Of a stretch of DNA of 64,000 nt, positions 2,388 through 19,619 are shown one piece after another (the first letter of the stretch is position 1; the number at the start of each line of letters is the position of its first letter). The translations under genes were made by a program, and so were the position numbers. The DNA comes from Ignavibacteriales bacterium (GTDB lineage: Bacteria > Bacteroidota > Ignavibacteria > Ignavibacteriales > Melioribacteraceae). Location: contig JAIOYW010000018.1 in NCBI GenBank assembly GCA_021740915.1, positions 1 to 64,000 on the forward strand, read 5' to 3'. Under the pieces are notes generated by a model that saw nothing but the letters and a program-made list of their open reading frames with translations, did no database searches and had not been told where the DNA came from.

Positions 2388-3989
2388 TCAGAATTTCCAA
2401 TTGAAATTAATGAAAATACGACCTAATGTCGTGTTTTGTTCGAACGTCCCCTCATAATTGAGAGTCAGATAAAATTTTCTCAGGAAATTAACACCCAGGT
2501 CAGCTTCAAGAATATTCTGTTTAAGATCGGTAGCGCTGCGAATAAAATGATACTTTACTATTCGGTATCCAATACCGCAATCAAGTAAATTGTTTAAGAG
2601 TTCTTTCCTTATCTGAAACCCTGCAATGTTGCCGTCAATGTAATTTGTTCTAAGGAAATTTGTCGAAAAAGAGAGTGAGGCATTAATTAGCGGGACTCTG
2701 GAATATGAAGCATAGAAACCATAATTATCAGATGATCTGATATCAGATTTCTTAGCCCTCGTGCCATAACTTATGCCCAGGAAGAGATTATTGAACGGTC
2801 TGAGATTTAAACGCGCCCTGAAACCCTGTCTTGTTTCATTGTCGTAGATACTATCTGCAAGAGTTCTGAATGTTTCATAATAAATGACATTTTTTCTTGC
2901 ATCATAAGAAGCATTCATAGATAACCATCGGTTAAAACTGTAACCGGCAGAAAGATAGATACTTGTAATATTAAAGGTGGTCTCAGAAATACCACGGAAT
3001 TTTTTATAAAGATCAATTTCTGAAGAGAAGAATAAGTTTAACCTGCTTAAGGGTAAGGAAGAATGCTGAAAATACAGAAATCTCCTGTCAGTATTTAAAT
3101 TATTTGTCTGATTAATAATACTGAATGAATTATTCATTATTCCTTCAAATACCGAGTCCTGCCGGGATATGTATGCTCCTGCCTGAAATAATTTGACAAT
3201 GACTCCGTAATCCGAAAAATTCGGTCGGGAGCCGGCAATTACACCATATTCAAAATACTTTGTGTTATTTTCATATTGGAATCCATCAATAGCGCCGGCA
3301 TTGGAAAGTTTGGGATTTATTTTTCTTCCAACCGTAAGTCTGGATGATTCACTTATTTTATAAATTAGGGCAAGGTCATATATCTTGAGGGCTTCTCCAA
3401 GATTCGATTTTACTCGCTGCCAGTCACGGGTACGATAATTAAAGGTAATATATGTCTGTAAATCAATCGGCAAACCTGCAACATCTTTACTATCGAGAGA
3501 AAGCCTGTAGCGCCACCTTTGATTATCAGCCCGGCTGCTGTAATTATTAAAATTTGTATAGGATGTGACTGAAAACTTTCCTCTAAAATCAGAAGATTCT
3601 TTGATGAATTCTTTGGATTTATCTGGTAAAACTGCAATTACTGGTTCAATCATATCTTTTGAATCATCAGTGGAATCTGCAAACTCTCCCGTAAATCTTG
3701 CAAACCCGGTTAAGGAATCGCCTTTTTTAAATTCCGCTTCTGTAATCGGCTCACCCGCGAGAGAAGTACTTGACTTAAATTTGACTTTCACAACAGGAAT
3801 TAAGTCAGTTCCACGGCTATAATAAAGTGTATCGCCTATCTCGAAACCCTTAGTCTCGCTAAACTTGACATAGATGGTGGACCGGGTGACAAGAGAGATT
3901 TCACCTGTTATAGCAATGCTTTTTTCTTGAGCATTAAATGAAGCCGCAAAAAACAGGCATACAGTAAGGAAATATATTTTTTTCATCAT
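2388..3989 (-). CDS. Outer membrane beta-barrel protein (porin-like), partner of the giant cytochrome
   Basis: A 533-residue protein with signal peptide MMKKIYFLTVCLFFAASFNA. Residues about 25-95 look like a small SH3-like beta domain (ITGEISLVTRSTIYVKF, then KGFEIGDTLYY). From about residue 135 to the end there are many alternating hydrophobic/polar strands rich in Tyr, Phe and Asn, and the chain ends in INFNWKF, a terminal aromatic residue as in BAM-inserted barrels. The start ATG overlaps the stop of the 61-heme cytochrome gene (ATGA), so the two are translationally coupled. In known porin-cytochrome conduits a barrel holds multiheme cytochromes across the outer membrane. By position this protein would play that part; that role is inference. 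An ordinary porin is the alternative. Confidence 0.75.
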   Translation of the reverse strand: MMKKIYFLTVCLFFAASFNAQEKSIAITGEISLVTRSTIYVKFSETKGFEIGDTLYYSRGTDLIPVVKVKFKSSTSLAGEPITEAEFKKGDSLTGFARFTGEFADSTDDSKDMIEPVIAVLPDKSKEFIKESSDFRGKFSVTSYTNFNNYSSRADNQRWRYRLSLDSKDVAGLPIDLQTYITFNYRTRDWQRVKSNLGEALKIYDLALIYKISESSRLTVGRKINPKLSNAGAIDGFQYENNTKYFEYGVIAGSRPNFSDYGVIVKLFQAGAYISRQDSVFEGIMNNSFSIINQTNNLNTDRRFLYFQHSSLPLSRLNLFFSSEIDLYKKFRGISETTFNITSIYLSAGYSFNRWLSMNASYDARKNVIYYETFRTLADSIYDNETRQGFRARLNLRPFNNLFLGISYGTRAKKSDIRSSDNYGFYASYSRVPLINASLSFSTNFLRTNYIDGNIAGFQIRKELLNNLLDCGIGYRIVKYHFIRSATDLKQNILEADLGVNFLRKFYLTLNYEGTFEQNTTLGRIFINFNWKF

Positions 3990-6900
3990 TTGTCAATTAA
4001 TTTTAAGTGACTTGCTGATTTATCGCTTCCATCCGGGTGACAATCATAACAGGCGATGCTATTATAAATGTAGCCCTGTACCCCTTCATGCTCATTATCC
4101 ATTTCAGATTGACGATGCTCATGGCAGTCAATACAGGAGAATATTGAGAAATTTCCAGCAACAGTATGGCAATCTGAGCAGAGATTCCATTCATCATCAT
4201 GTTTGCCTGAATAAATCGGGAAATACTGCTGATCGTGATTAAACGTTGACGGAATCCATGCGCTCTGAGAATGACATTCTTCACAATCAAGCGGAAATCC
4301 TTGTGATAAATGGTTTGGATTCGAAACTGAATTGTAATCCTGCTGATGGCATCCGACACAAGTGTTCGCAGTATTATTATAATTTCCATTATGGCATGAA
4401 ACACATTGATCTGAGATAAGATTATGTGCGCCGATCAGAGCAAAATAATTATTATGAATCGGAAACGAGGCAGGTTCCCAATTTGCATTTGTAGTATGGC
4501 ACTGGTCGCAATTCTGAGGAATGTTCAGGATTTCGTGATCAGGATTCGCCGAAGCCTGAAAATCGCTGAGATGACATTCAGAACATACACTGGATGTGCC
4601 TGTGTAACCAACGGCATGACAATCGGAACACTGGGTTGTAAGATGTACTCCTGTCAATGGGAAATTTGTATTGGCATGATCAAATGTAACCTCGTTCCAT
4701 GCAGTAGCAGAATGACATAATTGACAATCTGTCGGGAAATTTTGTGTCACATGATCAGGTGCTGTATTATATACAGATAAATGGCAATCCACGCATACAG
4801 ATGAAGTACCAGAGGTCACTCCCTGGTGGCAATCTGAACATGTTGCGGAAGTATGTCCTCCTAATAGCTGAAAATTTGTACTATTGTGATCGAATGACCC
4901 CGGAACCCAGGCAATGGTATTATGACAATCCTGGCATTGATCAGATAAACCGATAGCAGTATGATTGGGATTCAAAGAATTGTTAAAGTTCGATAAATGA
5001 CAATCAACACAAACAGAAGAAGTGCCGGAAGTTATTCCCTGGTGACAATCTGAGCAATTCGCGGATGTATGACCTCCTAAAAGCTGAAAATTTGTACTAT
5101 TGTGATCGAATGTCCCCGGAACCCAGGCTATTGTATTATGACAATCCTGACACTGATCAGATATTCCGATAACTGTATGATTGGGATTTAGGGAATTGTT
5201 AAAGTCTGATAAATGACAATCAGCACACAATGTGGAAGTTCCGGATGTGGAGCCTGTGTGACAATCTGAACACTGATTGGTGATATGTGCGCCAGCGAGT
5301 TGAAAACCAGTTGCAGAATGGTTAAATGTCCCCGGGATCCAAGCGGTGGTGTTGTGACAATCCTGACAAACATTCGAGATACCTGCTGTCTGATGGTTAG
5401 GATTTACCGAATTCAGATACTTTTGCTCATGACAGGATATACAGTCAACCGGGAGAGGGTTATAACCGGAGATGTGACAGACGCTGCACTCAGTCTCAAG
5501 ATGCGCACCAGTAAGCGGGAAGGCGGAATTAGCATGATTAAATGAACTTCCTTCGCTTCCATCCGGATGACAAGCTAAACAGGCTGTGCTGCTAAATTGA
5601 TAGCCCTGGACTCCCTGATGTTCTGAAGCCATCTGAGCTTGTCCATGCTCATGGCAGTTGATACACTCAAATACTGAATAATTCGAAGAGATTGTGTGAC
5701 AATCCGAACAAATATTCCATTCCCCCTGATGTTTTCCTGAATATATTGGAAAAAAGGCTGCATCATGTTCAAAAGTCGATGGTGTCCATGCAGTCTGGTT
5801 ATGACATTCAGTACAGTCCTGAGAAAAACTTGGTAAATTATGCGGCGGGTTCGAAACTGACTGGTAGTCATCCGAATGACAGCCATAACACTGATCCGGA
5901 GTGTTCACATAATCTCCTGAATGACATTGACTACAGTCATTGCTAATCTGTGTATGTGCTCCTGTAATCAGATAGTATTGATTATGCTGCGGAAATTCTG
6001 CAGGCTCCCACCCGATTGAAGTAGTATGACATGTGGAACAATCGTCGCCCAGATTTAATGCTGTGTGATTCGGATTAATCGCCTGCTGGTAATCATCTGA
6101 ATGACAATCTGTACATGCAGTCGAGGTGCCTGCAAGTCCTCCTGTATGACAGGATTGGCAATCGGTATTCGTATGTCCGCCTGTTAAAAGGAAATTTGTC
6201 TGTCCGTGATCATAAACGATATCAGCCCATTGTTCACTTACATGACAGATATCGCAATTTGTCGGATAATTTTGGCCAAGATGATTCGGCGCATTGTTGT
6301 AATTCTGATCATGACAACTCAAACATTCCGTAGGAAGAGCGGAATAACCATTTGTATGGCATTGACTGCAGTCAAGCGGAGAATGCGCCCCTGTAAGCGG
6401 AAAAGCTGATGTCTGGTGATCAAACGCCCCCTGATCGCTTCCATCAGGATGGCAGGCAAAACATTCAGGGCTTGAATAGATATATCCTGTTATCGATCTG
6501 TGTTTCTGATCCATTTCGATTTTGTTGTGCTCATGACACTGAGTACAATCAAAAGCTGAAAAATTTGAAGCTTGTGTATGACAATCAGCGCACGAAGCCC
6601 ATTCCCCATTGTGTTTTCCTGAATATATCGGAAAATAAGGTCCATCATGGTCAAAATTGGCTTGATTCCATTGGGTCGGAGAATGACAATCTTCGCAGGT
6701 TGTAGGAAATCCGGCAGAAAGGTGTGCCGGGTTCGTTGAGTTATTATATTCAATCGTATGACAAGAATAGCAGTCTGAGTTGGTATTTGAATACCCAGTC
6801 GAGTGACAATCTGAACATGAGACCGTAATAAGCGAATGAGAATTTGTTAATGCGAACACATTATTATGATCAGGATATTGAGCTGGCTGCCATCCTGGTC

Positions 6901-8551
6901 CTGTCTGGTGGCATCTGGCACAATCTGTTCCGGTATTTATCGTAATATGGTTTGGATTCTGTGCACTATTGTAATCAGTTTGATGACAATCAGAACATTG
7001 CGCTGATGTTCCGGCAAAACCGGCTGAATGGCAGTCAGAGCAGTTTGCTGCATTATGAGAGCCTGTCAAAGGAAAATTAGTTGCCGAATGGTTAAATGTT
7101 GAAGCCTGCCAGGTTTGCGTATCATGGCAGATCACACAATCGGTAGGATATCCCTGCGGCAGATGATTCGGAGCACTCTGATAATTATTTAAATGGCAGC
7201 TGTAACAGTCAGTCGGTGTATTTTGATAGCCTGTTTGATGACAATCGGCACAACTTACTGATTGATGTTGCCCGGTGAGTGGAAAACCTGTATTTGCATG
7301 ATTCGGTCCGTCATCTCCCTCACCTGAAGGATGGCAAGTATAACAAGCCTGACTATTGTACTGGTATCCATTGACTCCCTGATGGTCGCTATCCACTTCA
7401 GACTTATTTGAATGTTCGTGACAATTAATACAGGAGAAATCCTGGTAATTTGAGCTATTTATATGACAGTCTGAACAATTATCCCATTCACCACGGTGCT
7501 TGCCCGAATAAATCGGGAAATATGGCCCATCATGGTCAAAATCTGCCGGTGACCAGGCATTCTGATTGTGACATTGTGTACAATCTGTATCGAATGCAAG
7601 GGTCTGATGCGGAGGATCAACCGTAGAATTATATTCATCCTGATGACATCCGACGCACTGATTGGGGGTATTAGTATAACCCGCAGAATGACAAGACTGA
7701 CATTGGCTGGCAATGGCAGTGTGAGCCCCGATAATCGGATAGATATTGTTATGCCCCGGGAATTGTGCAGGCTGCCAGCCTGGTGATGTCGTGTGACAGG
7801 TTTGACAATCCTGAGAAAAATTATTCTGGGAGTGTGAAGGGTTAACGGTTGCCTGGAAATCCTGTAGATGGCATGAAACACATTGGTTCGAAAGTCCTGT
7901 AAACAGGTTGCTCGTATGGCAGGAAGCACAGGTTGCAATAGAATGTCCTCCGGTCAGAGGGAAAAAATTATGATCGAAACCAGTCCCGGACCAGGAATTA
8001 GAAGTCAGGGTATGGCAACTTTCACAGTCTTTTGAAAATCCGGACAAAATATGGTTGGGATTCTGTGTGGAATTATAGTCTTCGGTATGACAGTCGAAAC
8101 ACTGGACACCTAAAGGAACAAAATTTAATTTCGATGATGAGCTGTGACAACTCTCACAATCGGCAACCGCATGTGACCCCAGTAGCGGAAATCTTCCCAA
8201 CTGATGAATTTCAGTAATGCTGCTTACGACCCAGGATTCTGGTGTGTGGCATCTTTCACAATCAAAACCAGTGGAATTCTCATGCACATCTTTGTGGCAA
8301 CTGATGCAGCGGGAATCTGAAGAACTGAAGACAAGTGTATTATGGCAGCTTTTACAGTCTGCTGCTTTATGCTGCCCCAAAAGTTCAAATCCAGTAGTAG
8401 AATGGTCATACGAAAGTTTTGAACGATCAATCTTCCAGTTATCTGTTGTATGACAAACAAGGCAATCTATGTCGAAATTACTTCCATGCGGAGATTGTCC
8501 GAATATTCCATTAGAAAGGAATAATATTATCAGGAATGACAGACGATACAT
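3986..8551 (-). CDS. Giant multiheme c-type cytochrome, about 61 CxxCH heme sites
   Basis: A 1521-residue exported protein (signal peptide MYRLSFLIILFLSNGIFGQ) in which I count 61 CxxCH motifs, about one per 25 residues. No lipobox, membrane helix or T9SS tail is visible. Many hemes follow a phrase such as FxHxxTxFxLxGxH, whose histidines are likely distal ligands. The chain is made of four super-repeats, each containing a phrase FPIYSGKHxxEW (near residues 346, 641, 937, 1445) and closing with a CxxCHP(D/S)G phrase. By my count they hold 16, 12, 12 and 21 hemes. It probably moves electrons along the periplasm or outside the cell. Its gene overlaps the 20-heme gene upstream by 22 bases and the porin gene downstream by 4. 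Multiheme cytochrome is certain; the electron acceptor is unknown. AGGAGGG lies 5' of the ATG. Confidence 0.93.
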   Translation of the reverse strand: MYRLSFLIILFLSNGIFGQSPHGSNFDIDCLVCHTTDNWKIDRSKLSYDHSTTGFELLGQHKAADCKSCHNTLVFSSSDSRCISCHKDVHENSTGFDCERCHTPESWVVSSITEIHQLGRFPLLGSHAVADCESCHSSSSKLNFVPLGVQCFDCHTEDYNSTQNPNHILSGFSKDCESCHTLTSNSWSGTGFDHNFFPLTGGHSIATCASCHTSNLFTGLSNQCVSCHLQDFQATVNPSHSQNNFSQDCQTCHTTSPGWQPAQFPGHNNIYPIIGAHTAIASQCQSCHSAGYTNTPNQCVGCHQDEYNSTVDPPHQTLAFDTDCTQCHNQNAWSPADFDHDGPYFPIYSGKHRGEWDNCSDCHINSSNYQDFSCINCHEHSNKSEVDSDHQGVNGYQYNSQACYTCHPSGEGDDGPNHANTGFPLTGQHQSVSCADCHQTGYQNTPTDCYSCHLNNYQSAPNHLPQGYPTDCVICHDTQTWQASTFNHSATNFPLTGSHNAANCSDCHSAGFAGTSAQCSDCHQTDYNSAQNPNHITINTGTDCARCHQTGPGWQPAQYPDHNNVFALTNSHSLITVSCSDCHSTGYSNTNSDCYSCHTIEYNNSTNPAHLSAGFPTTCEDCHSPTQWNQANFDHDGPYFPIYSGKHNGEWASCADCHTQASNFSAFDCTQCHEHNKIEMDQKHRSITGYIYSSPECFACHPDGSDQGAFDHQTSAFPLTGAHSPLDCSQCHTNGYSALPTECLSCHDQNYNNAPNHLGQNYPTNCDICHVSEQWADIVYDHGQTNFLLTGGHTNTDCQSCHTGGLAGTSTACTDCHSDDYQQAINPNHTALNLGDDCSTCHTTSIGWEPAEFPQHNQYYLITGAHTQISNDCSQCHSGDYVNTPDQCYGCHSDDYQSVSNPPHNLPSFSQDCTECHNQTAWTPSTFEHDAAFFPIYSGKHQGEWNICSDCHTISSNYSVFECINCHEHGQAQMASEHQGVQGYQFSSTACLACHPDGSEGSSFNHANSAFPLTGAHLETECSVCHISGYNPLPVDCISCHEQKYLNSVNPNHQTAGISNVCQDCHNTTAWIPGTFNHSATGFQLAGAHITNQCSDCHTGSTSGTSTLCADCHLSDFNNSLNPNHTVIGISDQCQDCHNTIAWVPGTFDHNSTNFQLLGGHTSANCSDCHQGITSGTSSVCVDCHLSNFNNSLNPNHTAIGLSDQCQDCHNTIAWVPGSFDHNSTNFQLLGGHTSATCSDCHQGVTSGTSSVCVDCHLSVYNTAPDHVTQNFPTDCQLCHSATAWNEVTFDHANTNFPLTGVHLTTQCSDCHAVGYTGTSSVCSECHLSDFQASANPDHEILNIPQNCDQCHTTNANWEPASFPIHNNYFALIGAHNLISDQCVSCHNGNYNNTANTCVGCHQQDYNSVSNPNHLSQGFPLDCEECHSQSAWIPSTFNHDQQYFPIYSGKHDDEWNLCSDCHTVAGNFSIFSCIDCHEHRQSEMDNEHEGVQGYIYNSIACYDCHPDGSDKSASHLKLIDK
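4861..5292 (-). repeat. Two tandem 216-bp direct repeats inside the giant cytochrome gene
   Basis: Bases 4861-5076 and 5077-5292 are similar copies in direct orientation. For example GAAAATTTGTACTATTGTGA occurs in both at a 216-base offset, and runs such as CCCCGGAACCCAGGC and TTATGACAATCCTG recur at the same offset. Each copy encodes 72 residues with three CxxCH motifs. Similarity continues more weakly on both sides. This marks a recent duplication within the coding region. Confidence 0.85.
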
Positions 8552-10113
8552 CTTATATCTTCCCTCCTAAATTGACGATATTTTTCACCAGAGACTTCAA
8601 CAATTTTATGACATTCAGAACAAGGCACTTTTTCGTGAGCCCCGGCAAGTGAAAATTTTGTTTTGGAATGATCAAATTTTTCAGGTTTCCAATCATTAAA
8701 ACCATGGCATTTTAAACAATCCGTCTTCCCATCAATTGCAAATTGTGACTTATGAATATCAGAATGGCATGATTCGCATTCAGACGAAAGGTTTTTAAAC
8801 AAATGCAATTTTTTTCCTGAAAATGTCTCCTTTATATGGCAAGATGAGCACTGTATCTGATTATGTCTGCCGAAAAGAGAAAATTTGGTCTTGTTATGAT
8901 CAAAAGTTACAGAAGACCACAGGTCTGTATCGTGACAATTCTCACAACGGTTTTTTCCAAGATAAGCTTCAGAAATCTGATCGCCATGAACGTTTTTATG
9001 GCAGCGGGCACAATTATCAGACTGAACCCTGAAATTCCATATACCTTCGAGCAAATGACAGGATTCACAGGGTGTTGCCAAATGCCCACCAGTCAATTTA
9101 AATTGTGAATTATTATGTTCAGTAATTGAAAATAGCGACGGTGTGAAATTTTCTACCACGTGACACTCGGAACAATCCCGGATCAAATTGATGGTGGAAA
9201 ACTGCCCCTTATGATAATCTTCATGACAATTAGCACATTTTTCAAATTCAGGCTTTGAAGCTATCCCTCCTGAGTGGCATTTTTTACAATCAAGATTCGT
9301 ATGCTTTCCAAGAAGTGGAAATTTGGTTTTTCCGTGGTCAAACTTATCAATGTTAAGTATTTTTTTGAAAGATTCTGTGGAATGGCAGTCAGTACAGCTT
9401 TTACCGAATGCTCCGTTATGTATATCGTTATGACATGATTCACATGAATTAAAATTAAGTCCGGTAAACCTCTGAAATTTTCCTTCTTTGGTCTCCTCGA
9501 TTCTGTGACATTTTTCACATTCGACTTTCTGGTGTGACCCGGTCAGTTTGAACTTTGTCCGGTTATGGTCAAAATTAACAGCCGGTTTGAAACTGTCATT
9601 ACCGTGGCAGGATGAGCATTCAGAACCTAATTTTCCCTTATGAAAATCTTCGTGGCACGAGAGACAGGTTTGCTCAAGTCCTAAATACGTTCCCTTCCTG
9701 CTTTTTAATTCTTTATCAGTAATAAAATCAGCTTTGTGACACTTAGCACATTCTGCCTGATTATGTTTCCCGATTAATTTGAATCCTGTTTTATTATGAT
9801 CGAAAGACTTCTCATCAAATCGGACTATCTGGAAATTTCTACCATGATGTTCACTATGACAGGAGAAGCAATCTTTTGATCTCGCTTCAGGCGAAACATG
9901 GAATCCTCTCTCCTTTGAAATAAGAGCAGCAATTTCTTTATGGCAGGTGAGGCATTTATTATTTGATACTGCTTTGCCTAATTCGTGGCATTTTGTACAA
10001 TTGCTCATGCCCTCGTATTTAGAATGTGCTTTAGTAAGATCGCCGGGTGAAATCTGTGCAGATAGATTTATGAAACAGAAAAAGGCAGCCAATATTTTAA
10101 TTAATGTTTTAAT
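8530..10113 (-). CDS. 20-heme c-type cytochrome; probable ATT start
   Basis: I count 20 CxxCH motifs in about 527 residues. Six repeats of a phrase FDHxxTxFxLxGxH, each followed by a CxxCH, show a three-heme module of about 72 residues, the same module as in the giant cytochrome next door. The start is unusual. The first conventional start, TTG at 10092, leaves only AAFFCFINLSAQ as leader. Reading from ATT at 10111-10113 gives MKTLIKILAAFFCFINLSAQ, a complete signal peptide with a basic N-region, and an in-frame stop lies 6 bases further upstream. A GGTGA sits just 5' of the ATT. The start overlaps the oxidoreductase gene by 13 bases, suggesting coupling. Likely a periplasmic electron carrier between the inner-membrane parts and the outer-membrane conduit (inference). 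Confidence 0.9.
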   Translation of the reverse strand: MKTLIKILAAFFCFINLSAQISPGDLTKAHSKYEGMSNCTKCHELGKAVSNNKCLTCHKEIAALISKERGFHVSPEARSKDCFSCHSEHHGRNFQIVRFDEKSFDHNKTGFKLIGKHNQAECAKCHKADFITDKELKSRKGTYLGLEQTCLSCHEDFHKGKLGSECSSCHGNDSFKPAVNFDHNRTKFKLTGSHQKVECEKCHRIEETKEGKFQRFTGLNFNSCESCHNDIHNGAFGKSCTDCHSTESFKKILNIDKFDHGKTKFPLLGKHTNLDCKKCHSGGIASKPEFEKCANCHEDYHKGQFSTINLIRDCSECHVVENFTPSLFSITEHNNSQFKLTGGHLATPCESCHLLEGIWNFRVQSDNCARCHKNVHGDQISEAYLGKNRCENCHDTDLWSSVTFDHNKTKFSLFGRHNQIQCSSCHIKETFSGKKLHLFKNLSSECESCHSDIHKSQFAIDGKTDCLKCHGFNDWKPEKFDHSKTKFSLAGAHEKVPCSECHKIVEVSGEKYRQFRREDIRCIVCHS

Positions 10114-11438
10114 ATCACTTCACCATATTTCTTTGTTATATTAATTCCAATTTTTTCGAGAAATTGATTAGGGAGTTCTCCTCCGGCAAAAACATAAACC
10201 AAATCATTATTGATCTCAGCAATCTCGTTGTCAATTTCAATCAGGACTGATTTTTCCTTGATCTCTTTAACATTGGATTTTAAAATGACATCAATTTTGC
10301 CTGATTTATTATATTCTTCCAACAGTTCAAGATTTTTCGATTTTATCCGGCTGAATGAATCAGCCCGATATGATAATTTAACCCTGTTGTTTTCATCGGC
10401 TAACATCATTGCTGATTCAACAGCGGAATCTCCTCCACCAACTACCAGAATATCCTGTTCTTTTATAAGTTCCGGTTCAAGCAGCCGGTAATATACTTTG
10501 GGCAAATTCTCCCCGGGCACTCCTAATTTCCGTGGCGAACCTCGTCTTCCGATTGCCAGCAGAATCGCCTCGGAAGTATAGACCCCCGCGGAAGTTTCAA
10601 CCTGAAAAATATTCTCACTTTTTTGAACACTCGTAACTTTATTATACTCTTTAATATCAATGCTATTTTTAGTAATGACATCATTCCATAATTCCAGGAT
10701 CTGCTGCTTATTAGTCTCAACAAATTTCACTTTTCCATATAGCGGCAAATCCATCGGTGAAGTCATCACTAACTTAGCTCTTGGAAAAGTAAATACTGTC
10801 CCGCCGATACTGTCCTGTTCGAGGCAAACAGAACTTATGCCCAGTTTCTTAGCAGAAAGGCTGGCGGCGATCCCGGCAGGACCAGCACCTATAATGATCA
10901 GATCATATTGTGCACCTGATTTCTTTGAGAGAGATGAAGCAATATTTTCAACTGCCTGTTTTCCCTGTTCTACCGCATTTTTAATTAACCCCATTCCTCC
11001 CAGTTCACCGGCAATATATACACCCGGAACATTAGTCATAAACTTCTCATTAACATGAGGAAGCTCGACACCTCTTTTTTCAGTACCTATAACAAGTGAT
11101 ATAGCCTGAACCGGACATGCGTGAAAACATGCACCATGACCCACACATCGTGATGCGTTTATTGTGGTTGCCTTTCCTCCTGCAATTCCGAGGATGTCCT
11201 TCTCCGGACAAGCAGCGATACATGCACCGGAACCAATACACGAATCAGGGTCAATTGATGGATGAAGTGATACTGGTTCGAAAATTCCAGTCGCTTTCGC
11301 CTTATTAATTTTCTCCCTTGTTATTGCCGAAGATTGTCTTTTAGATTTTATATATTTTATGACAATAATGATGGCCAATAGAAAAAGTACAGCGTATGTG
11401 ACCAGATTTTCAATCAGAACTTCCGACTGAGCATCCAA
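10101..11438 (-). CDS. Membrane-anchored ferredoxin/FAD/NAD(P) oxidoreductase
   Basis: 445 residues. A membrane helix at about 9-29 is followed by a ferredoxin-like part with two motifs, CIGSGACIAACP (Cys 67, 73, 77) and CVGHGACFHACP (Cys 98, 104, 108). Then comes a thioredoxin-reductase-like flavoprotein with FAD-binding GAGPAG (about 184-189) and NAD(P)-binding GGGDSA (about 334-339). The redox CxxC pair of true thioredoxin reductases is not seen. In both ferredoxin motifs the usual second Cys is replaced (Ser 70, His 101). It starts with TTG, AAAGG upstream, 2 bases after the TPR gene. Likely passes electrons between NAD(P)H and the membrane or cytochrome chain; direction and partner are inferred from the operon. 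Confidence 0.85.
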   Translation of the reverse strand: MDAQSEVLIENLVTYAVLFLLAIIIVIKYIKSKRQSSAITREKINKAKATGIFEPVSLHPSIDPDSCIGSGACIAACPEKDILGIAGGKATTINASRCVGHGACFHACPVQAISLVIGTEKRGVELPHVNEKFMTNVPGVYIAGELGGMGLIKNAVEQGKQAVENIASSLSKKSGAQYDLIIIGAGPAGIAASLSAKKLGISSVCLEQDSIGGTVFTFPRAKLVMTSPMDLPLYGKVKFVETNKQQILELWNDVITKNSIDIKEYNKVTSVQKSENIFQVETSAGVYTSEAILLAIGRRGSPRKLGVPGENLPKVYYRLLEPELIKEQDILVVGGGDSAVESAMMLADENNRVKLSYRADSFSRIKSKNLELLEEYNKSGKIDVILKSNVKEIKEKSVLIEIDNEIAEINNDLVYVFAGGELPNQFLEKIGINITKKYGEVILKH

Positions 11439-11440
11439 TT

Positions 11441-12049
11441 CTATAACCTTTTTAATGATTCAGCGGCAAGTTTCGCGGCTTCGCTTTCAGGATACCTGTC
11501 AATAATTTTCTCCCAAATAAGCTTAGCCTTTGATTTATCACCTCTTGTGGCAGCAATAGCGCCTAAATTATAATTAGCTTCACGATTGTCCTTATCGAAG
11601 GATAAAATAATATTAGTGTATTCTTCAGCTTTGTCGATCCTGCTGGCATTATAATGCATTAAGGTAAGACCAAGCAGAATATCTGTCCTTTTGGGACCCT
11701 TTAAAAGTATTTTTTCTAAAATTGGTATTGCCTGCTCCGTCATATGCGCTGAGGCCAGAACTTCTGCATAAGCTTTGGCTTTGACAGTATCTTCAGGATT
11801 TCCTTCGTATGCTTTTTTCAGCATTTCCAACTGGTGTTTGAAACTCTGGCTCACATTTGATCTCGAAGGCTCATTTCCCATCGGATTCATGTTTTTGTGT
11901 ATATCATCCTCTGGCATATTTTTGCTGGCAATATTAGCTGGATTTTGAGGCTCACTATTTCCAGGACCAATAATAATAATCCCAATGATAATTGAAAGGA
12001 GAGCAAATATATATATATATACTGGTTTAATTTTTTTTAGAATATCCAT
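11441..12049 (-). CDS. Membrane-anchored TPR protein
   Basis: About 202 residues from ATG 12047-12049 (MDILKKIKPVYIYIF). A longer reading from 12136 would lie mostly inside the upstream gene and begins with implausible sequence, so I reject it. One N-terminal membrane helix (about 8-26) is followed by a low-complexity linker rich in Asn, Pro and Met, then three to four tetratricopeptide repeats from about residue 75 (phrases such as AIPILEKILLKGP and ANYNLGAIAATRGD). It overlaps the end of the heme-b-like gene by 13 bases. Similar TPR proteins often serve as assembly factors for cytochrome complexes (c-type maturation CcmH/CycH-like); a scaffold or assembly role for this operon's cytochromes is inference. 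Confidence 0.8.
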   Translation of the reverse strand: MDILKKIKPVYIYIFALLSIIIGIIIIGPGNSEPQNPANIASKNMPEDDIHKNMNPMGNEPSRSNVSQSFKHQLEMLKKAYEGNPEDTVKAKAYAEVLASAHMTEQAIPILEKILLKGPKRTDILLGLTLMHYNASRIDKAEEYTNIILSFDKDNREANYNLGAIAATRGDKSKAKLIWEKIIDRYPESEAAKLAAESLKRL

Positions 12050-12912
12050 GTGTACCCGAATGTTATTGAAACTCCAACGTGAATTAACATAATGATTAGC
12101 ATAATTATGGCAAATGGCAGATGTGCAACATGCCAATATCTGAAAAGTTCTTTCATTGAGGATAATAAAACAATCCTCCTCTGAAGTACAAGTTTTGTCT
12201 TGATTATTTTAAGTAAAATTTTTAGATCTTTACCTTCAACACCAGTAGCTTTTAGTTCAAATCTTAATTTATTTAATAAAAGATAATTAGACCATTTATC
12301 CTCAAAAAGAAAAAATAATTTATGAAGATGTCCTTGCCTTGAAATTGATCCGAATTTACCAGCATCATCCAGTTTACTAAGTGTACTTGATTGAATTGCA
12401 TATTCAGTACGTAACTGATCATTGATTGAAGTATTCTGCCTCATCAGATCATCGATGGTAAGTTCATTTCCCTGAATTGTTCTCGGTATTTGAATGTAAA
12501 TAAACCTGCCGATTACTCCGCTAAGTACAACAGCTACCATACTCCAGAAACTGACGGATACCAAACCGCCGAACTTGAATGAGGTGTGAAATAGAACGAG
12601 AATTGGGCCGAGAGAACAAAGAAAAATATGAAATTCAAGCCAGTGTTTAAGTTTACCTAACCGAAATATTTTTTTGTATCGTTTTCGTATCATATAGATA
12701 CTTACGCCCAAAAGCATAAAAATGGAGCCAATGATACCGAAACCATGTCCTAATAATCCGGAAGGCTTCAGTAATTCATATAACGGATGGAAAAACCTTT
12801 CCTCAATGGGAAGGGAATAATATGAATAGCCGTAATACACAAGAATTACAGTGGTGAAAAGGCTGATGAGTAAAAAACCTGATATATATATTCTATGAGT
12901 TATTTTGTTCAA
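12037..12912 (-). CDS. Polytopic membrane protein, probable b-type cytochrome
   Basis: 291 residues, TTG start. Membrane segments at about 10-30, 55-76, 92-112, 116-138 and 263-287, with a long soluble loop at about 139-258. Histidines sit at or near the helices: H56 (LLGHGFGIIGS), H90, H95 and H109 (LEFHIFLCSLG, then VLFHTSF), and H261, H264 and H278 (YWHVAHLPF, then LIHVGVSITFG). This layout suits a four-helix protein binding one or two b hemes with His-His ligation, as in cytochrome b561/NapC-like quinol or ferric reductases, but I recognise no exact family. It is the first gene of the electron-transfer operon and overlaps the TPR gene. Likely the inner-membrane electron entry or exit point. 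Confidence 0.7.
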   Translation of the reverse strand: MNKITHRIYISGFLLISLFTTVILVYYGYSYYSLPIEERFFHPLYELLKPSGLLGHGFGIIGSIFMLLGVSIYMIRKRYKKIFRLGKLKHWLEFHIFLCSLGPILVLFHTSFKFGGLVSVSFWSMVAVVLSGVIGRFIYIQIPRTIQGNELTIDDLMRQNTSINDQLRTEYAIQSSTLSKLDDAGKFGSISRQGHLHKLFFLFEDKWSNYLLLNKLRFELKATGVEGKDLKILLKIIKTKLVLQRRIVLLSSMKELFRYWHVAHLPFAIIMLIIMLIHVGVSITFGYTWIF

Positions 12913-13147: not shown

Positions 13148-14089
13148 CTACTGTATTACTGATCTAAAATAATCAAGGGTAATTCGCAATCCCTCTTTTC
13201 GATCAATTTTAGGTTCCCAGTTAAGAATCATTCTTGCCCGCGTAATATCAGGTTGTCTGATTTTAGGATCGTCTTCAGGCAGTTCTTTATAAATTATTTT
13301 ACTTCCTGAATTTGTAAGTTTAAGTAATTCCTCGGCAAATTCTTTAATAGTGATTTCTGACGGGTTTCCAATGTTTACGGGATCAGTTTCATCCGAAAGA
13401 AGAAGTTTGAATATTCCATTAACCAGATCATCGACAAAACAGAAACTTCTTGTCTGTGATCCATCGCCAAAAACTGTTAAATCCTCACCCCGTAACGCCT
13501 GGCTTAAAAATGTCGGCAGTGCTCTGCCATCATCAACACGCATTCTCGGCCCATAAGTATTAAAGATCCTGACAATCCTCGTCTGGACTTTGTGGTAACG
13601 ATGATAAGCCATTGTTATTGCTTCTCCGAATCGTTTTGCCTCATCATAGACACCCCTCGGACCTATTGGATTTACATTCCCCCAATAATTTTCCGTTTGC
13701 GGATGTATGTTTGGATCTCCATAAACCTCAGAAGTAGAGGCTAAAAGGAATCTTGCATTTTTCTCTTTTGCAAGACCAAGAACTTTGTGAGTACCGAGAG
13801 ACCCTACTTTAAGCGTCTGAATCGGCAATTTAAGATAATCAATCGGACTTGCAGGTGAAGCGAAATGAAGGATGTAGTCAACCGGACCAGGTACATGAAT
13901 ATAATTCGTTACGTCATGTTTGATAAACTGAAAATCCTCATTCCCAAAAAGATGTGAAATGTTATTGATATTTCCGGTTAATAAATTATCAATACATACA
14001 ACACGCATTCCCTCTGCCATCATCCGATCACAAAGATGTGACCCTAAAAATCCGGCGCCTCCTGTTACTACAGCTACCTTTTTACTCAT
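13148..14089 (-). CDS. uxs: UDP-glucuronate decarboxylase (UDP-xylose synthase)
   Basis: 313 residues, an extended short-chain dehydrogenase. It shows the NAD-binding GGAGFLGS at 10-17 and the catalytic set Thr119, Glu121 (STSEVYGD), Tyr148 and Lys152 (YDEAK). The phrase [10 protein letters not shown] is characteristic of UXS and related UDP-sugar enzymes. It converts UDP-glucuronate to UDP-xylose with bound NAD, supplying a sugar nucleotide for surface polysaccharide. It lies 9 bases downstream of the Wzz-like gene, at the end of the polysaccharide export operon. A dTDP-glucose dehydratase is the alternative, but the length and [11 protein letters not shown] phrase favour UXS. Confidence 0.9.
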
Positions 14090-14098
14090 ATAAAATCT

Positions 14099-15232
14099 CT
14101 ATTGTAATAGTTTTTTATTTTCAGTGACAAGAGTAAATAAACTAATGAGGATAAAGCCAAACATTCCTCCTATTAGTGTACTTACTATTACGCGGGGCCC
14201 CTCAGTACGAATTGGTGGAATTGCCGGATCCAAGACTTCAACAGTTGAAACATCTTTATTTTCCTGAATTTTTTCCTTAAAGAGTTGTTTTTCCAGCATA
14301 AGATATACTTCATTTAGAATTTTAACATCGCGGGTCAATCGGGCAAGGTCTGTCATAACCTCAGGCATATTACCGAAACTTGGCAGGTAATCTGTTTTCC
14401 CCTCAATTCCGGAAGTAAGTTTCTCATATTCCTTTTCAAGAATGCTTATTTTCGCTTTTATGGAAGAGATAGCCTCGGAAGAAGGATTAAAATTATATTC
14501 CAGCGTTTTGAGTTGAATTTGCAAACTCGTTAGCTCACTTTTAACCTTTGCTGCATTTTCTATAGAGGCAGAAAGCTGGTCGGTTAATGATATGGCTTTA
14601 TGTTTTGTTTGAAAATTTTTCAGTGATTCTTCAGCCGATGCAAGTTGTTTTTTTGTTTCAAGAATCTGTGAATCCAGGAATTCCCTTGTTCTTCTTGCCT
14701 TTAAGTTCAGTTTATTCTTATTAATTTTATCGAGAGCTTCCACATAAGTATTAGCAACGCGGGCAGAAAAATGTCTGACTGAATCCTTCTCGTCGGAAAA
14801 TCTTGCAAAATAGGGAGTCTTAAACTCAATCGAAAATTCAATTACTCCTTCTTTCGTAACCTGAGAATTGATCAATTGTTCAATGATAAGCAGAGCTTCG
14901 ACAGAATCTCTAACGCCGAAATATTCAACAAGATTGCATTTCTTAATCACGAATTCAGAAGCAATTCTGCTTTCTAAAACAAAAGCATATAATTGAGAAT
15001 TGCTGCTGCCGGTTTTAAGCCCGAACATGGAAAGTGCTTCCTGCCCTTCAGCTAATCCGGGAAAAGCCCCGAACTGATCTTCATCAGGGGGTAAAATGGT
15101 AACTTTTGCACTGTATCTAAGCGGCAACACAAAATAAACAAGTATAAAAGTGAGAATAGTTACCGAGAGCGTAAATATTAGAATGTACTTTTTTCTTGTA
15201 GAAAGTAGTTGAAGAATCTTCTGGAAATTCAT
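14099..15232 (-). CDS. Wzz-like polysaccharide chain-length/co-polymerase protein
   Basis: About 377 residues from ATG 15230-15232, preceded by GAGGTGA; a start six codons upstream would overlap the previous gene and lacks that site. Membrane helices lie near both ends (ILIFTLSVTILTFILVYFVL after the N-terminus; VIVSTLIGGMFGFILISLFT near the C-terminus) with a long coiled coil between (about 170-290). The phrase ILPPDEDQFG and the distal Pro-rich stretch before the second helix fit the Wzz/GNVR family, which sets polysaccharide chain length in the inner membrane. No kinase domain is attached, unlike the Wzc-like protein two genes upstream. Confidence 0.85.
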   Translation of the reverse strand: MNFQKILQLLSTRKKYILIFTLSVTILTFILVYFVLPLRYSAKVTILPPDEDQFGAFPGLAEGQEALSMFGLKTGSSNSQLYAFVLESRIASEFVIKKCNLVEYFGVRDSVEALLIIEQLINSQVTKEGVIEFSIEFKTPYFARFSDEKDSVRHFSARVANTYVEALDKINKNKLNLKARRTREFLDSQILETKKQLASAEESLKNFQTKHKAISLTDQLSASIENAAKVKSELTSLQIQLKTLEYNFNPSSEAISSIKAKISILEKEYEKLTSGIEGKTDYLPSFGNMPEVMTDLARLTRDVKILNEVYLMLEKQLFKEKIQENKDVSTVEVLDPAIPPIRTEGPRVIVSTLIGGMFGFILISLFTLVTENKKLLQ

Positions 15233-15233
15233 T

Positions 15234-16820
15234 TCACCTCGAGGCAACAACCAAAGCAGTGATTGCAGTAATAATGGCAGCCATCTGCCCAGTTACAGTT
15301 AATACATCAATAAATACTTCCCAGAATTTTGGTGCGGGGGGGTCTTCCGGGACCCAAATTATATCCCCGGGTTCAATATTTTCAACCTCATCGTATTCAA
15401 TCCATTCACCAGACGCACCCTTGATAACCCTTATATCATCATCAACTGCTCTCCATGCAAATCCGCCGGCTAATCTGATATAATCATCAATTTTAAAATC
15501 GGCTTTATAAACAATGTTTCCGGGAGAAACAACCTGACCGACTAAAGTAACGAAGTCTTTCGCTTCAGGGATGAAGATTTTATCGCCCATTTTTAAAATA
15601 ATATCTTCTTTCTGATCTTTCTCGAAGAACAGTTTCTCGAAATCGATTACCATCCTCCCTTTCCGCTCACGAGACCGCGCCTTGAAATAATCATATTCAT
15701 CATCCGTCATATCTGCACGAGGAACGATTTTCAATCTCTCATACTCGTAATCAGTTTCAACAATTTTGCTTGATCTCAGAACATAGGCATCTTTTAAAGA
15801 GGCTCTTTCTAAAAAGCCACCAACTTCATTAGTTAACAGTTGGTACAAACTAGTTCCGTCCTTCCTTATCTTATATACACCAGGAAATTTAACTTCCCCA
15901 AAAACTTCCACCGTTCTGTTAATTTTAAACTCAGGAATTTCTCGAATAATAACCTTATCGCCACTTAACAATTGAAAATGATCATCGAAGATATCTTGGA
16001 GTGAATAATAATAACTCTTCAATGTTTTTTTATCACTTTCAAACCGGATTAGTTCAAGTGAATCTGCTCTGGCATTTTCAGTAATGCCGCCGGCGATAGA
16101 AATCAGATCAGCAATCCGTTCATTTTCCTTGAGTTCATAATCTCCGGGATAAAAGATACTTCCAAGAATGCTAACGATTTTATCAGTTTTTTTGAAAATA
16201 ATTTTTGAGTTGTTAAACAGGGATGGATTGCCTTGTAGATCGGACAAACGATAAAAAGATAGAAGATCACATGAAGTAGTATCAGAATTACTAAGAACAA
16301 TCTCAATGTTTCTGATGTCAGTATCCTCATAAATTCCATCGGAAAGTCTAAGTAAATCTGTCAGCCTTGCTGTAGCCGGGAGTGAATAATTACCAGGATT
16401 TTTTACATTCCCGGAAAGAAAAACATTTATCAGCCGAATTTTGCTGATCATTATATTAACTATTACATCTTTGTACCGCGATAGAATTTTTCTCTCAATT
16501 TCATCTTTCCCCTCATTAAGAGTTTTGCCCTTCAATGCAAGCAGTCCGGATTGCGGGATAAATATGAGTCCCTCCGGATTTATAACTAATTGAATTTGCT
16601 GCTCATTTACACCTGAAACAGAAACAAGAAACTCATCACCTGGTCCGAGGATATATGAATCTGCTTCAATTTCACCGGTAAGAAGGGGAGAATCGGTTTT
16701 CTCAACTTTGTCTTTGACTGACAACATTGTAATCTGTTGTCTATGAGCATAACTGGGAATATTCTGAGAAATAATAATTCCATTTATAAAAAATATTAAA
16801 AGAAATATTTTTTTTCTCAA
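15234..16820 (-). CDS. Polysaccharide export outer membrane protein (Wza-like, SLBB repeats)
   Basis: About 528 residues. I choose TTG at 16818-16820: GGGAG lies at 16827-16831 and the reading gives a proper signal peptide (MRKKIFLLIFFINGIIISQ). The longer reading to 16919 would overlap the kinase gene by 68 bases. A polysaccharide export (PES) domain (ADSYILGPGDEFLVSVSG) is followed by several SLBB domains (for example VFLSGNVKNPGNYSLPATA; VFGEVKFPGVYKIRKDG; LVGQVVSPGNIVY), and a C-terminal hydrophobic helix (TVTGQMAAIITAITALVV) replaces Wza's amphipathic helix. It forms the outer-membrane or periplasmic export path for the polysaccharide. Its stop is 1 base from the next start. Confidence 0.88.
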   Translation of the reverse strand: MRKKIFLLIFFINGIIISQNIPSYAHRQQITMLSVKDKVEKTDSPLLTGEIEADSYILGPGDEFLVSVSGVNEQQIQLVINPEGLIFIPQSGLLALKGKTLNEGKDEIERKILSRYKDVIVNIMISKIRLINVFLSGNVKNPGNYSLPATARLTDLLRLSDGIYEDTDIRNIEIVLSNSDTTSCDLLSFYRLSDLQGNPSLFNNSKIIFKKTDKIVSILGSIFYPGDYELKENERIADLISIAGGITENARADSLELIRFESDKKTLKSYYYSLQDIFDDHFQLLSGDKVIIREIPEFKINRTVEVFGEVKFPGVYKIRKDGTSLYQLLTNEVGGFLERASLKDAYVLRSSKIVETDYEYERLKIVPRADMTDDEYDYFKARSRERKGRMVIDFEKLFFEKDQKEDIILKMGDKIFIPEAKDFVTLVGQVVSPGNIVYKADFKIDDYIRLAGGFAWRAVDDDIRVIKGASGEWIEYDEVENIEPGDIIWVPEDPPAPKFWEVFIDVLTVTGQMAAIITAITALVVASR

Positions 16821-16851
16821 GTAATACTCCCGAAGTAAGTTCTGCGGTTTG

Positions 16852-19089
16852 TTATGCTTTTTTCCCCTGATTTGCTGCGGGTCGTGAATAATAATAATAA
16901 TATTTGTAATACGAACCATAACCAGCTTTATAGCTGAAATTGTTGAGTATTACGCCTACGAACGATCTTGTTTCATGACTCAGCAATTCAACAGCCTTTA
17001 ACATCAGATCATTTTCTGTAGTATTGGCAGAAACAACAAGCAATGTTGAATCAGCGATTCGCGAGAGTATTTCCGAATCAGTTACTGCAACAACAGGAGG
17101 CGAGTCCAGCATAACTATGTCGTACATCCCCTTCAATCTTTCCAAAAACTCGGACATTTGATTGGACCCTAAAATTTCCGAGGGGTTTGGAGGAATAGTT
17201 CCGGATGTGATAAAATCGAGATTTTCCAACTCAGATTTTCTGATGATATCCTCAAGTCCGGCTTTTCCAAAACAATAATCAGTAAAACCTGGCGATTTTT
17301 TCACTTTCATGATTGTATGAACTCTCGGTTTGCGAAGATCACAATCAACAACAACAACCCGTTTATTTGCCTGAGCAAAACTTCCTGCCAAGTTTATAGA
17401 GATTGTTGTTTTACCTTCACGGGGGGCTGCAGATGTAACAAGGAGTACCTTGGAATTAATGGCATCAAGTCTTGAGAACTGAATCCTTGTACGCAGAGCT
17501 CTGAAAGCTTCACTGGGTATTGAGTCCGGACGACGGGCAACAATAAATTCAAATTCTTTATTTGAGGAATCCACCACTCCTTCAATCTGTGGAATCCAGG
17601 CTAGCACATTCACGCCTTTAGCCTGGATATCTTCAGGAGTTTTAACAGTATTGTCAAAATAATTTCTAATAAACGCAACTGCGATTCCCATGCCTATGCC
17701 CATTATTAAACCGGCAATAACGATGAGAGTTCTATTCGGTTTTGTTGGTTTTTTCGGAACAAATGCTTTATCAATAATAAAAACACTTCCAGGAGTTGAC
17801 TGCTCATTAATAAGAGCCTCTTGGTACTTTTCTTCCACTAAAAGGTACAGTTTTTCAATCGCAACTCTTTCCCTTTCGAGTCTTGCAAGATCGATAGTGC
17901 TTTTTGGAAGCGAATTGAACCTCTTCTCATAATCTGCAACTATTTTTGTTAACTGTTTTTCTGAAGACTTAAGTCCCTGGGTTTTTATCTCCTCTTCAAG
18001 TATTCTTGCAGTCCATTCCCTGACATTCTCAGGCGAAGATGCAAAAATACTAGCCTTCAAAATTTTAAGCTTTGGTTCTAATTTACTCTGGAGATCTTTG
18101 ATTTTATTATCATACTCTGAAATAACAGCGTTCTTCTCAGCAGATTGCATTTTTCCGGAGAGGGCCAAATCCTTTTGAATCTCAAGTCTTGCAATCTGTT
18201 CCTGCAAATTATTTATATAAGGTTCATTTTTTATATTTTCAAGGTACGCATTGACATCAGGATCAATTTCTTTTAATCTTTCCTTGTACTTATTAAGATT
18301 ATCTACAGAAATGGTGAGTTGAAGCCGGGTAGAGTTAAGTTGAGCTTCAAAAGATGTAAGCTGCGATATTAATGCTGCAGCCTGCTCATCCAAACGAATA
18401 ATACCGCCTTTTTCCTGATATGATTTCAGATTGTTTTCAGCGCTCTGTAAATCATTTAATTTTTCAACACGCTGATTCGCGAGAAATTCCTTAACTGATG
18501 TTAACTGCAATCTGTTGTTCAGTAAATTCAGATCTCTATATGCCTGAGTATAACAATTCGCGATAAGCGCAGTCTCGTATGGCGAGGGGGTTTCAACGTC
18601 AATCTGAACAATATCCAGACCTCTTTTCTGTTCAATTTTTGGAAGGTCTGATAATACTGCTGCAATCTGAGCACGTGACATCAAAACAGGATTGAGCGGA
18701 TCCGTTTTGTCAAGTAAATAATCTAATTTTGTCACAGAACCTGACGTAGTGACAGAATCAAGAATCCGATCAGCAACTGCCAATCGTGTATTGAAACTTT
18801 TTATTATTTCAATCTCATTGGCGATAAATCTGTCCATACCATAATTCTGAAACTCGGGCAGCAACGGTGCTTCGAGGATATTTCCCTGAGGTGTAGAAAG
18901 CTTGAAAATAGTGCTCGAACGGTAAATATCAACTGCATTTGCAGCATAGATTAAAGCAACTGCAAGTCCGGCAAGACTTATAAGTAAAATCGGAATAAGA
19001 TTCAATCTTATCAGATTAATATAATCTTTAAGGGTATTTCCTTCGTTTTCTCTCAATCTGATCGATGAAAGCGTATTATTATCTGGCAC
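16852..19089 (-). CDS. Wzc-like tyrosine autokinase (BY-kinase) for exopolysaccharide export
   Basis: About 745 residues from GTG 19087-19089, with GGAG 5 bases upstream and 8 bases after the previous stop; the longer frame to 19176 overlaps the neighbour. An N-terminal Wzz domain and helix (LIPILLISLAGLAVALIYAA) are followed by coiled-coil and GNVR regions and a second helix (TLIVIAGLIMGIGMGIAVAF). The cytoplasmic kinase has Walker A APREGKTT, Walker A' VVVVDCDLRKP and Walker B DIVMLDSPPV. The C-terminal tail is a tyrosine cluster (YGSYYKYYYYYSRP), the usual site of autophosphorylation. It controls polymerisation and export of surface polysaccharide by cycling between phosphorylated and free states. 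Confidence 0.93.
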   Translation of the reverse strand: MPDNNTLSSIRLRENEGNTLKDYINLIRLNLIPILLISLAGLAVALIYAANAVDIYRSSTIFKLSTPQGNILEAPLLPEFQNYGMDRFIANEIEIIKSFNTRLAVADRILDSVTTSGSVTKLDYLLDKTDPLNPVLMSRAQIAAVLSDLPKIEQKRGLDIVQIDVETPSPYETALIANCYTQAYRDLNLLNNRLQLTSVKEFLANQRVEKLNDLQSAENNLKSYQEKGGIIRLDEQAAALISQLTSFEAQLNSTRLQLTISVDNLNKYKERLKEIDPDVNAYLENIKNEPYINNLQEQIARLEIQKDLALSGKMQSAEKNAVISEYDNKIKDLQSKLEPKLKILKASIFASSPENVREWTARILEEEIKTQGLKSSEKQLTKIVADYEKRFNSLPKSTIDLARLERERVAIEKLYLLVEEKYQEALINEQSTPGSVFIIDKAFVPKKPTKPNRTLIVIAGLIMGIGMGIAVAFIRNYFDNTVKTPEDIQAKGVNVLAWIPQIEGVVDSSNKEFEFIVARRPDSIPSEAFRALRTRIQFSRLDAINSKVLLVTSAAPREGKTTISINLAGSFAQANKRVVVVDCDLRKPRVHTIMKVKKSPGFTDYCFGKAGLEDIIRKSELENLDFITSGTIPPNPSEILGSNQMSEFLERLKGMYDIVMLDSPPVVAVTDSEILSRIADSTLLVVSANTTENDLMLKAVELLSHETRSFVGVILNNFSYKAGYGSYYKYYYYYSRPAANQGKKA

Positions 19090-19097
19090 GTAAACTC

Positions 19098-19619
19098 CTA
19101 TCCTCTGGAAATATTTAATATTAGAATTGTTAATGAAATCATAGCTGATAGAACTGAAAGAGCGATTCCCAACCAATCCTTAAAGAAAAGTCGCGGACTA
19201 CCCGGAACAACAAGGATATCATTAGTTTTTAGCTCAGGGATTTTTCTGTTGTTGAGCATAAGATTTTCTTCCCACATCAAATCGTTATAACTGAATTTAA
19301 ACAATGTCTGGGAAGAATCGGGAGCAACCCTGTACAGCCTGAGATCATCAAACTCTGCATTCACTTCAGGCCCACCAGCAAGCGAAATCAGGTCAGTGAC
19401 GGAAGTGTAAGATGGTACGAGATACTTTCCAGGAAACTTAACATAACCCCATACTGAAACCATCATATTTATAGCGTTTGGATCGGCATAATCAAAGAAT
19501 CCGCCCTGCCGATTCATAATTGGATTTGATCTGCCTATTTCAAAGTCTTTTGTTTGGGCAGAAACATTCAAGCCCATTAATAAAATTATTGTTAGGATAA
19601 ATAGCCCTGTTTTCCTCAT
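19098..19619 (-). CDS. Small SLBB-domain exopolysaccharide export protein
   Basis: About 173 residues from ATG 19617-19619, with signal peptide MRKTGLFILTIILLMGLNVSA. It has a single SLBB domain (VSVWGYVKFPGKYLVPSYTS, then LISLAGGP) and a C-terminal membrane helix (LGIALSVLSAMISLTILILN). No full polysaccharide export domain is present, so it is shorter than Wza. It opens the export operon, 8 bases before the kinase gene. A partner or adaptor for the larger SLBB protein is likely. Confidence 0.8.
   Translation of the reverse strand: MRKTGLFILTIILLMGLNVSAQTKDFEIGRSNPIMNRQGGFFDYADPNAINMMVSVWGYVKFPGKYLVPSYTSVTDLISLAGGPEVNAEFDDLRLYRVAPDSSQTLFKFSYNDLMWEENLMLNNRKIPELKTNDILVVPGSPRLFFKDWLGIALSVLSAMISLTILILNISRG

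Follow-up and report, generated by a model that had tools for sequence, protein, structure and literature searches.

By what unit does a cytochrome with 61 heme-binding motifs grow, and what might so long a chain serve? The question is raised by an open reading frame at 3986..8551, on the minus strand, of a 64,000-nucleotide stretch of DNA from an Ignavibacteriales bacterium of the family Melioribacteraceae (GenBank assembly GCA_021740915.1, contig JAIOYW010000018.1, positions 1 to 64,000; hereafter the window). The frame encodes 1521 residues: an N-terminal hydrophobic signal-like stretch, one leading heme motif and 20 triheme modules. A preliminary description of the window had identified it as a 61-heme cytochrome built by stacking 12-heme units and 3-heme modules. 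We find that the growth unit is one three-heme module of about 72 residues, and that expansion takes place in the middle, between five N-terminal and three C-terminal modules that keep their positions.

Module structure of the long cytochrome

The count of 61 CXXCH motifs was borne out. All of the cysteines (122/122) lie inside these motifs, at a density of 24.9 residues per heme. After the leading motif come 20 modules of 66–76 residues (84 for the last one with its tail), each with three motifs and a usual heme spacing of 15, about 25 and about 32. This short–medium–long order is kept at 57 of 59 transitions, against a mean of 20 and a maximum of 34 in 20,000 shuffles. The periodicity on which the preliminary description had staked its proposal is present, and it is not the product of chance. 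Histidines outside CXXCH number exactly three in 16 of the 20 modules, and four or five in the remaining four, which are those of type C. This provides one candidate second ligand per heme, made up of the module histidines and His22 for the leading motif, and so bis-histidine ligation is likely. Sorted by type (the names are ours, and the type models derive from the window protein's own modules), the modules run N1 N2 A B C, D A B C, D A B C, a X X X, A B C.

The C-type modules carry the marker FPIYSGKHxxEW, which starts at residues 345, 640, 934 and 1444 (gaps of 295, 294 and 510). The four markers had been recognized before, at positions that were off by up to three residues (346, 641, 937 and 1445) and with spacings of 295, 296 and 508; the 12, 12 and 21 motifs then assigned to the intervals between them are confirmed. 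The last block is longer by 216 residues, exactly 3 × 72, which corrects the earlier figure of about 212 and leaves its interpretation as nine hemes in three extra 72-residue modules intact. At the DNA level the marker region is a 164-nucleotide repeat with four minus-strand copies at 7413..7576, 6528..6691, 5646..5809 and 4116..4279, spaced 1530, 882 and 885 nucleotides apart and 67–72% identical to the reference copy. The three extra modules correspond to a three-copy, 216-nucleotide tandem array on the same strand at 4776..5423, which begins midway through module 14 and ends midway through module 17 and whose copies are 85% and 62% identical to the reference copy. Identity between half-modules within the array reaches 91% for the first halves of modules 16 and 17 and 89% for the second halves of modules 15 and 16. 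Half-modules, when joined, match D module 10 only slightly better (50% versus 47%), so that a break of a D module by the array is at most suggested.

Growth in steps of three hemes

The search covered 391 class-level genomes, 97 of which gave a match at 1e-30, together with 79 genomes of the family (36 at 1e-60) and a set of named genome contigs (15 loci). Motifs were counted in complete, N-free long cytochromes; 21 rows on incomplete contigs were excluded and the family count includes the window. All 22 complete family proteins carry 3n+1 motifs, with 12 distinct values (25, 28, 31, 34, 37, 40, 43, 46, 49, 58, 61 and 70), as do 8 of the 9 complete proteins on the named contigs. Twelve values imply at least 11 length changes, all multiples of three, for which the chance probability comes to roughly (1/3)^11 = 6e-6 if each change were free, an estimate that takes no account of kinship between species. 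We rejected 12 hemes as the growth quantum, since the family counts step by three in 22/22 proteins; what stands of the earlier growth rule is the lengthening of a single chain by repeats. The four-module order in the window is just one among several middles in the family. Because the middle is composed differently in relatives, the 12-heme repetition seen here is one history of the middle and not a general rule.

Homologue length follows 60 + 23.74 × the number of hemes (r = 0.999), and within the family it ranges from 664 to 1722 residues (coefficient of variation (CV) 0.25). One homologue has 16 motifs and reads just N1 N2 A B C (L082, genome G318). The highest complete one has 85, again 3n+1, in a 2145-residue open frame of an uncultured Bacteroidetes metagenome-assembled genome (L046:8341-14778, plus strand). 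At seven class-level loci (L081, L085, L091, L094, L095, L100 and L109) a second small gene with 9–10 motifs of the same module kind directly follows the long gene, as if the C-terminal part of the long cytochrome had been split off.

Fixed ends and a variable middle

To each of the 306 modules of the 22 family proteins we assigned its best match by position. Modules 1, 2 and 3 find it at the same position of another genome in 22/22 proteins each, module 4 in 18 and module 5 in 16; for the last three modules the numbers are 18, 19 and 14 of 22. By comparison, 63 of the 130 middle modules are closest to another module of their own protein. In the window, all on the minus strand, the fixed N-terminal part (7313..8464) thus comprises the leading heme and modules 1–5 (N1 N2 A B C; 16 hemes), the expandable middle (4691..7312) modules 6–17 (D A B C D A B C a X X X; 36 hemes), and the fixed C-terminal part (3989..4690) modules 18–20 (A B C; 9 hemes) with a short tail. 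This arrangement had been overlooked in the preliminary description, as had membership of a PCC3-type cluster, to which we return below.

The same pattern is visible within a single genus, where motif numbers are 34, 37, 40 and 46. Genomes G226 (40 motifs) and G295 (34) have N-terminal ends that are 92% identical and C-terminal ends that are 90% identical, with five and three middle modules, respectively; their congeners G145 and G401 have seven and four. The middle in G145, G226 and G295 is an array of D-type modules.

Divergence between modules was assessed as DNA identity and as nonsynonymous (dN) and synonymous (dS) substitution computed from a codon alignment. The closest pair in the window, modules 15 and 16, is 73.6% identical in DNA with a dS of 1.29 and a dN of 0.19. 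Across the 22 family proteins the closest pair of each is 69.8 to 96.2% identical, and dN is below dS wherever both are computable. The repeats are diverged, with purifying selection acting on them, and this favours a translated, selected protein. Separately, the C-type modules of the N- and C-terminal ends within one protein are 84% identical in DNA in G277 (L078) and 93% in G337 (L077), which suggests gene conversion between the fixed ends in these two genomes.

Gene cluster and relation to PCC3

The long cytochrome is the fifth of six genes on the minus strand. From upstream to downstream these encode a membrane protein (12037..12912; 291 residues, with WX3HX13H at 91 and 260 and SGXXG at 131), a tetratricopeptide repeat (TPR) protein (11441..12049; N-terminal hydrophobic segment, start set at an internal ATG), a protein binding flavin adenine dinucleotide (FAD) and NAD(P) (10101..11438; 445 residues, two 4Fe-4S motifs, N-terminal hydrophobic segment), a 20-motif cytochrome that is probably periplasmic (8530..10092; 520 residues), the 61-motif cytochrome, and a predicted outer membrane barrel (2388..3989; 533 residues). 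The 20-motif gene overlaps the long gene by 22 nucleotides, and the ATG of the barrel gene overlaps its stop by 4. At this length the long cytochrome is present as a single copy in its own genome, where the remaining matches are the 20-heme neighbour and two smaller multiheme genes.

The arrangement is conserved. Wherever family loci have enough flank, the membrane, FAD and 20-motif genes lie upstream and the barrel gene downstream on the same strand (17/17), and at order level each of the four is in place in 16–17 of 17 loci. The TPR gene occurs in some relatives only, upstream in 4 of the 17 family loci. Lengths of the membrane and FAD proteins are near constant in the family (CV 0.03); length figures for the 20-heme and barrel genes were set aside, as they took in fragments and a mis-assigned long ORF. 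Complete copies of the partner cytochrome have exactly 20 motifs in 26/27 cases in the family, 18/18 in the order and 20/21 in the class. One partner, at L076 (G079):5450-6562, has 15 motifs in a 370-residue frame although similarity begins further upstream; its short frame is probably due to a frameshift or sequencing error. Membrane protein homologues of at least 220 residues contain both WX3HX13H motifs in 63 of 71 cases and an SGXXG in all 71. In the AlphaFold2 model of the barrel protein (predicted local distance difference test score (pLDDT) 78.6) a small N-terminal beta domain precedes 22 strands, as counted manually, and the 50 Foldseek matches listed are all outer membrane barrels or complexes containing one. 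The FAD/4Fe-4S protein adjoins the cluster in nearly all relatives and at two gammaproteobacterial loci as well; a possible role is to connect the cluster with NAD(P)H or ferredoxin.

These features resemble PCC3, and the comparisons made here draw on parts of the papers cited. PCC3 clusters encode a porin, multiheme cytochromes for the periplasm and for the cell exterior, and a ~300-residue membrane protein whose two WX3HX13H motifs and SGXXG are the signature of inner membrane proteins in PCC3/PCC4 (He et al. 2017, PMC5566968). Their extracellular cytochromes have up to 63 and 85 motifs at 22–39 residues per heme (PMC5566968), and the published median for the periplasmic one is 21 motifs. 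The window has a ~300-residue membrane protein with these motifs, a 20-motif partner, 61 motifs at 24.9 residues per heme and a predicted barrel. At gammaproteobacterial loci L050 and L051, which by our own reading are PCC3 clusters, a similar membrane protein gene, two 21-motif genes and a candidate porin gene (694 and 751 residues) stand in the same order as in the window; matches there to the window's membrane protein are at 26–28% and those to its 20-heme protein at 34–36%. On the strength of the membrane protein motifs and of the gene order and matches at L050 and L051, we file the window cluster as PCC3-type with an apparently different barrel.

The likeness lies in the kinds of genes, the very few residues per heme and the repeat-rich extracellular cytochrome. 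Unlike PCC3 as described in the sections compared, the window family occurs in Ignavibacteria-type genomes and has a strict triheme module with 3n+1 counts, a partner of 20 rather than 21 motifs, a 533-residue barrel of 22 predicted strands with no sequence match in three proteobacterial loci, and an FAD/ferredoxin gene that is absent from the components listed in PMC5566968. Since published members have 63 and 85 motifs, 61 is not a record, so the heme number that had been singled out as very high is correct and has precedents in print; the 85 motifs of the L046 homologue equal the top number reported in PMC5566968. Extracellular PCC3 cytochromes of Gallionellaceae have 10–16, 18, 26, 28, 29, 33 and 35 motifs, without a step of three, and such cytochromes have been modelled as long and mostly linear (PMC10734462). 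The large cytochromes of close relatives in Burkholderiales and Anaerolineales differ by whole CxxCH-containing pieces gained or lost (PMC7399161), as do those of the window family; a fixed quantum, fixed ends and a family-wide count rule are not described in the section of that paper compared here. The same paper compares the Burkholderiales loci with the clusters of He et al. and already describes, from Ignavibacteria, large cytochromes (40 and 33 motifs) and porin–cytochrome clusters of other types. A triheme quantum combined with fixed ends is stated nowhere in the literature listings and passages searched, which took in few subscription papers. What is new here is that growth keeps strictly to a triheme quantum, that the ends stay fixed, and that such proteins are spread in Ignavibacteria-type genomes; the PCC3 plan and heme numbers up to 85 were known already.

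Comparison with other multiheme cytochromes

Against the long cytochrome the NCBIfam c7 triheme model (TIGR04257) scores 17.8 bits (E 0.0028), below its curated cut-off of 40, and membership of the c7-type triheme nanowires was rejected on this basis. With the usual c7 heme spacing of 24, 14, the order would differ from the 15-25-32 of the window protein. GSU1996, the c7-type 'nanowire of hemes' of Geobacter, has 12 hemes in four triheme domains with one His-Met heme per domain (PMC10138318); like the window protein it is a single chain built from triheme domains, whereas the latter has one spare histidine per heme. Profile similarity to the MtrC/MtrA and UndA family is weak (77 bits for the Pfam MtrC-MtrF domain), and the DmsE/MtrA decaheme model (TIGR03508) scores 50.4 bits, below its curated cut-off of 192.2; unlike in that family, module number varies among the relatives of the window protein. 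A single-sequence search of the PDB with the long cytochrome gave no match at 1e-3, and a profile search gave 13 at 0.1, the best of which was UndA (E 6e-8).

Proposed function and alternatives

We think it quite probable that the 61-heme protein acts as the extracellular cytochrome in a PCC3-type cluster, with fixed docking ends and a middle whose module number sets reach or charge capacity. In this scheme electrons would be exchanged among an inner membrane protein that holds two b hemes and has the FAD/ferredoxin protein at its cytoplasmic face, the 20-heme cytochrome, whose fixed length would cross the periplasm and the outer membrane barrel, and a long exported chain of bis-histidine hemes outside the cell. 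One fixed end would dock on the barrel or the 20-heme partner and the other outside or on another molecule, while whole middle modules, gained by tandem duplication or lost, would adjust reach or charge capacity three hemes (about 72 residues) at a time. What we infer here from sequence is where the proteins lie, that the motifs carry heme, that the hemes form an unbroken chain and that electrons are conducted. A protein kept at 20 hemes would suit a gap whose width does not vary, namely periplasm plus outer membrane, and one of variable length the open space outside; because the 20-motif count is constant and the length of the long cytochrome varies, we place them in these two settings, in agreement with the published assignment.

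Several observations weigh against this proposal. The 3n+1 rule is weaker in distant relatives, where it holds for 12/19 proteins of the order and 21/36 of the class. Nine of the 23 exceptions outside the family have a final spacing of 42–43, as would result if the last module were missing its middle motif; the others are not all explained, and several stop within a module or have a long gap elsewhere. Module 20 is closest to its own position in 14 of 22 proteins only, and in 7 it is closest to the N-terminal C-type module. The AlphaFold2 model of modules 6–9 (four modules, 12 hemes) is weak (pLDDT 69; predicted template modelling score 0.45) and matches no solved structure (one Foldseek match at E 9.8 and none at 0.001; none with VIA-align), so that no heme-chain geometry was obtained. 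Finally, the window barrel has no tblastn match at 1e-5 in proteobacterial loci L048, L050 and L051, in a search made at the level of sequence, where barrels diverge fast.

Stacked bis-histidine chains typically rise by roughly 1 nm per heme, and at this value 61 hemes would have a contour of some 55–75 nm. As a narrower version of the proposal we put forward, tentatively, an adjustable molecular wire, in which the docking ends are constant, length is set in exact three-heme steps from 16 to 85 hemes, and the 20-heme partner serves the gap of fixed width.

Neutral slippage of the repeats, by which module number drifts without consequence for function and a minimum length is all that a chain needs in order to work, is in our view rather unlikely. 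It fits the differing motif numbers of congeners (34, 37, 40 and 46 in one genus) and the 63 of 130 middle modules that are closest within their own protein, but not the restriction to whole-triheme changes in 22/22 family proteins. Nor does it sit easily with dN below dS for the closest repeat pairs of the window and its relatives, although selection on module content still allows drift in module number.

We consider it a still weaker candidate that the long chain, in the periplasm or bound to the surface, serves chiefly as a capacitor, in which electrons are held when an acceptor is lacking and module number means capacity, not reach. Capacity would scale with heme number just as reach does, and published work suggests a storage role both for GSU1996 (PMC10138318) and for the large cytochromes of PCC3-like kind (PMC7399161). 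The constant ends and the constant 20-heme partner, however, fit a docked conduit, and storage alone needs no constant ends.

That an assembler created or collapsed the repeats, a possibility raised in the preliminary description, is highly improbable and was rejected: such repeats are prone to mis-assembly and many relatives are fragmented drafts whose copy numbers may be off, but divergence and dN below dS between repeats make assembly error unlikely, with window modules differing at no fewer than 26% of bases and showing a strong synonymous excess, and the single-contig genome G113 gives 43 motifs, again 3n+1, with the same module types at both ends.

The family bears on an open question, that of conduction over distance versus charge storage in multiheme chains, which it could address. 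Constant ends and exact triheme steps yield matched proteins of differing length, including congeners with about 90% identical ends that are two modules apart, and current could be measured directly against length on such a natural series. If the adjustable-wire reading is true, nature has supplied in this family a single wire at a series of lengths. The family further offers a rule by which genetically encoded wires could be designed, and it extends to Ignavibacteria-type genomes the PCC3-type clusters, whose first description came from Proteobacteria.

Genomic surroundings

No RuBisCO large subunit was found in the genome that carries the window, and three COX1-family oxidases score over the cut-off. 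Directly upstream of the cluster and on the same strand, at 13148-19176 of the window (minus), lie polysaccharide export genes (epimerase, Wzz, SLBB/Poly_export and GNVR/AAA).

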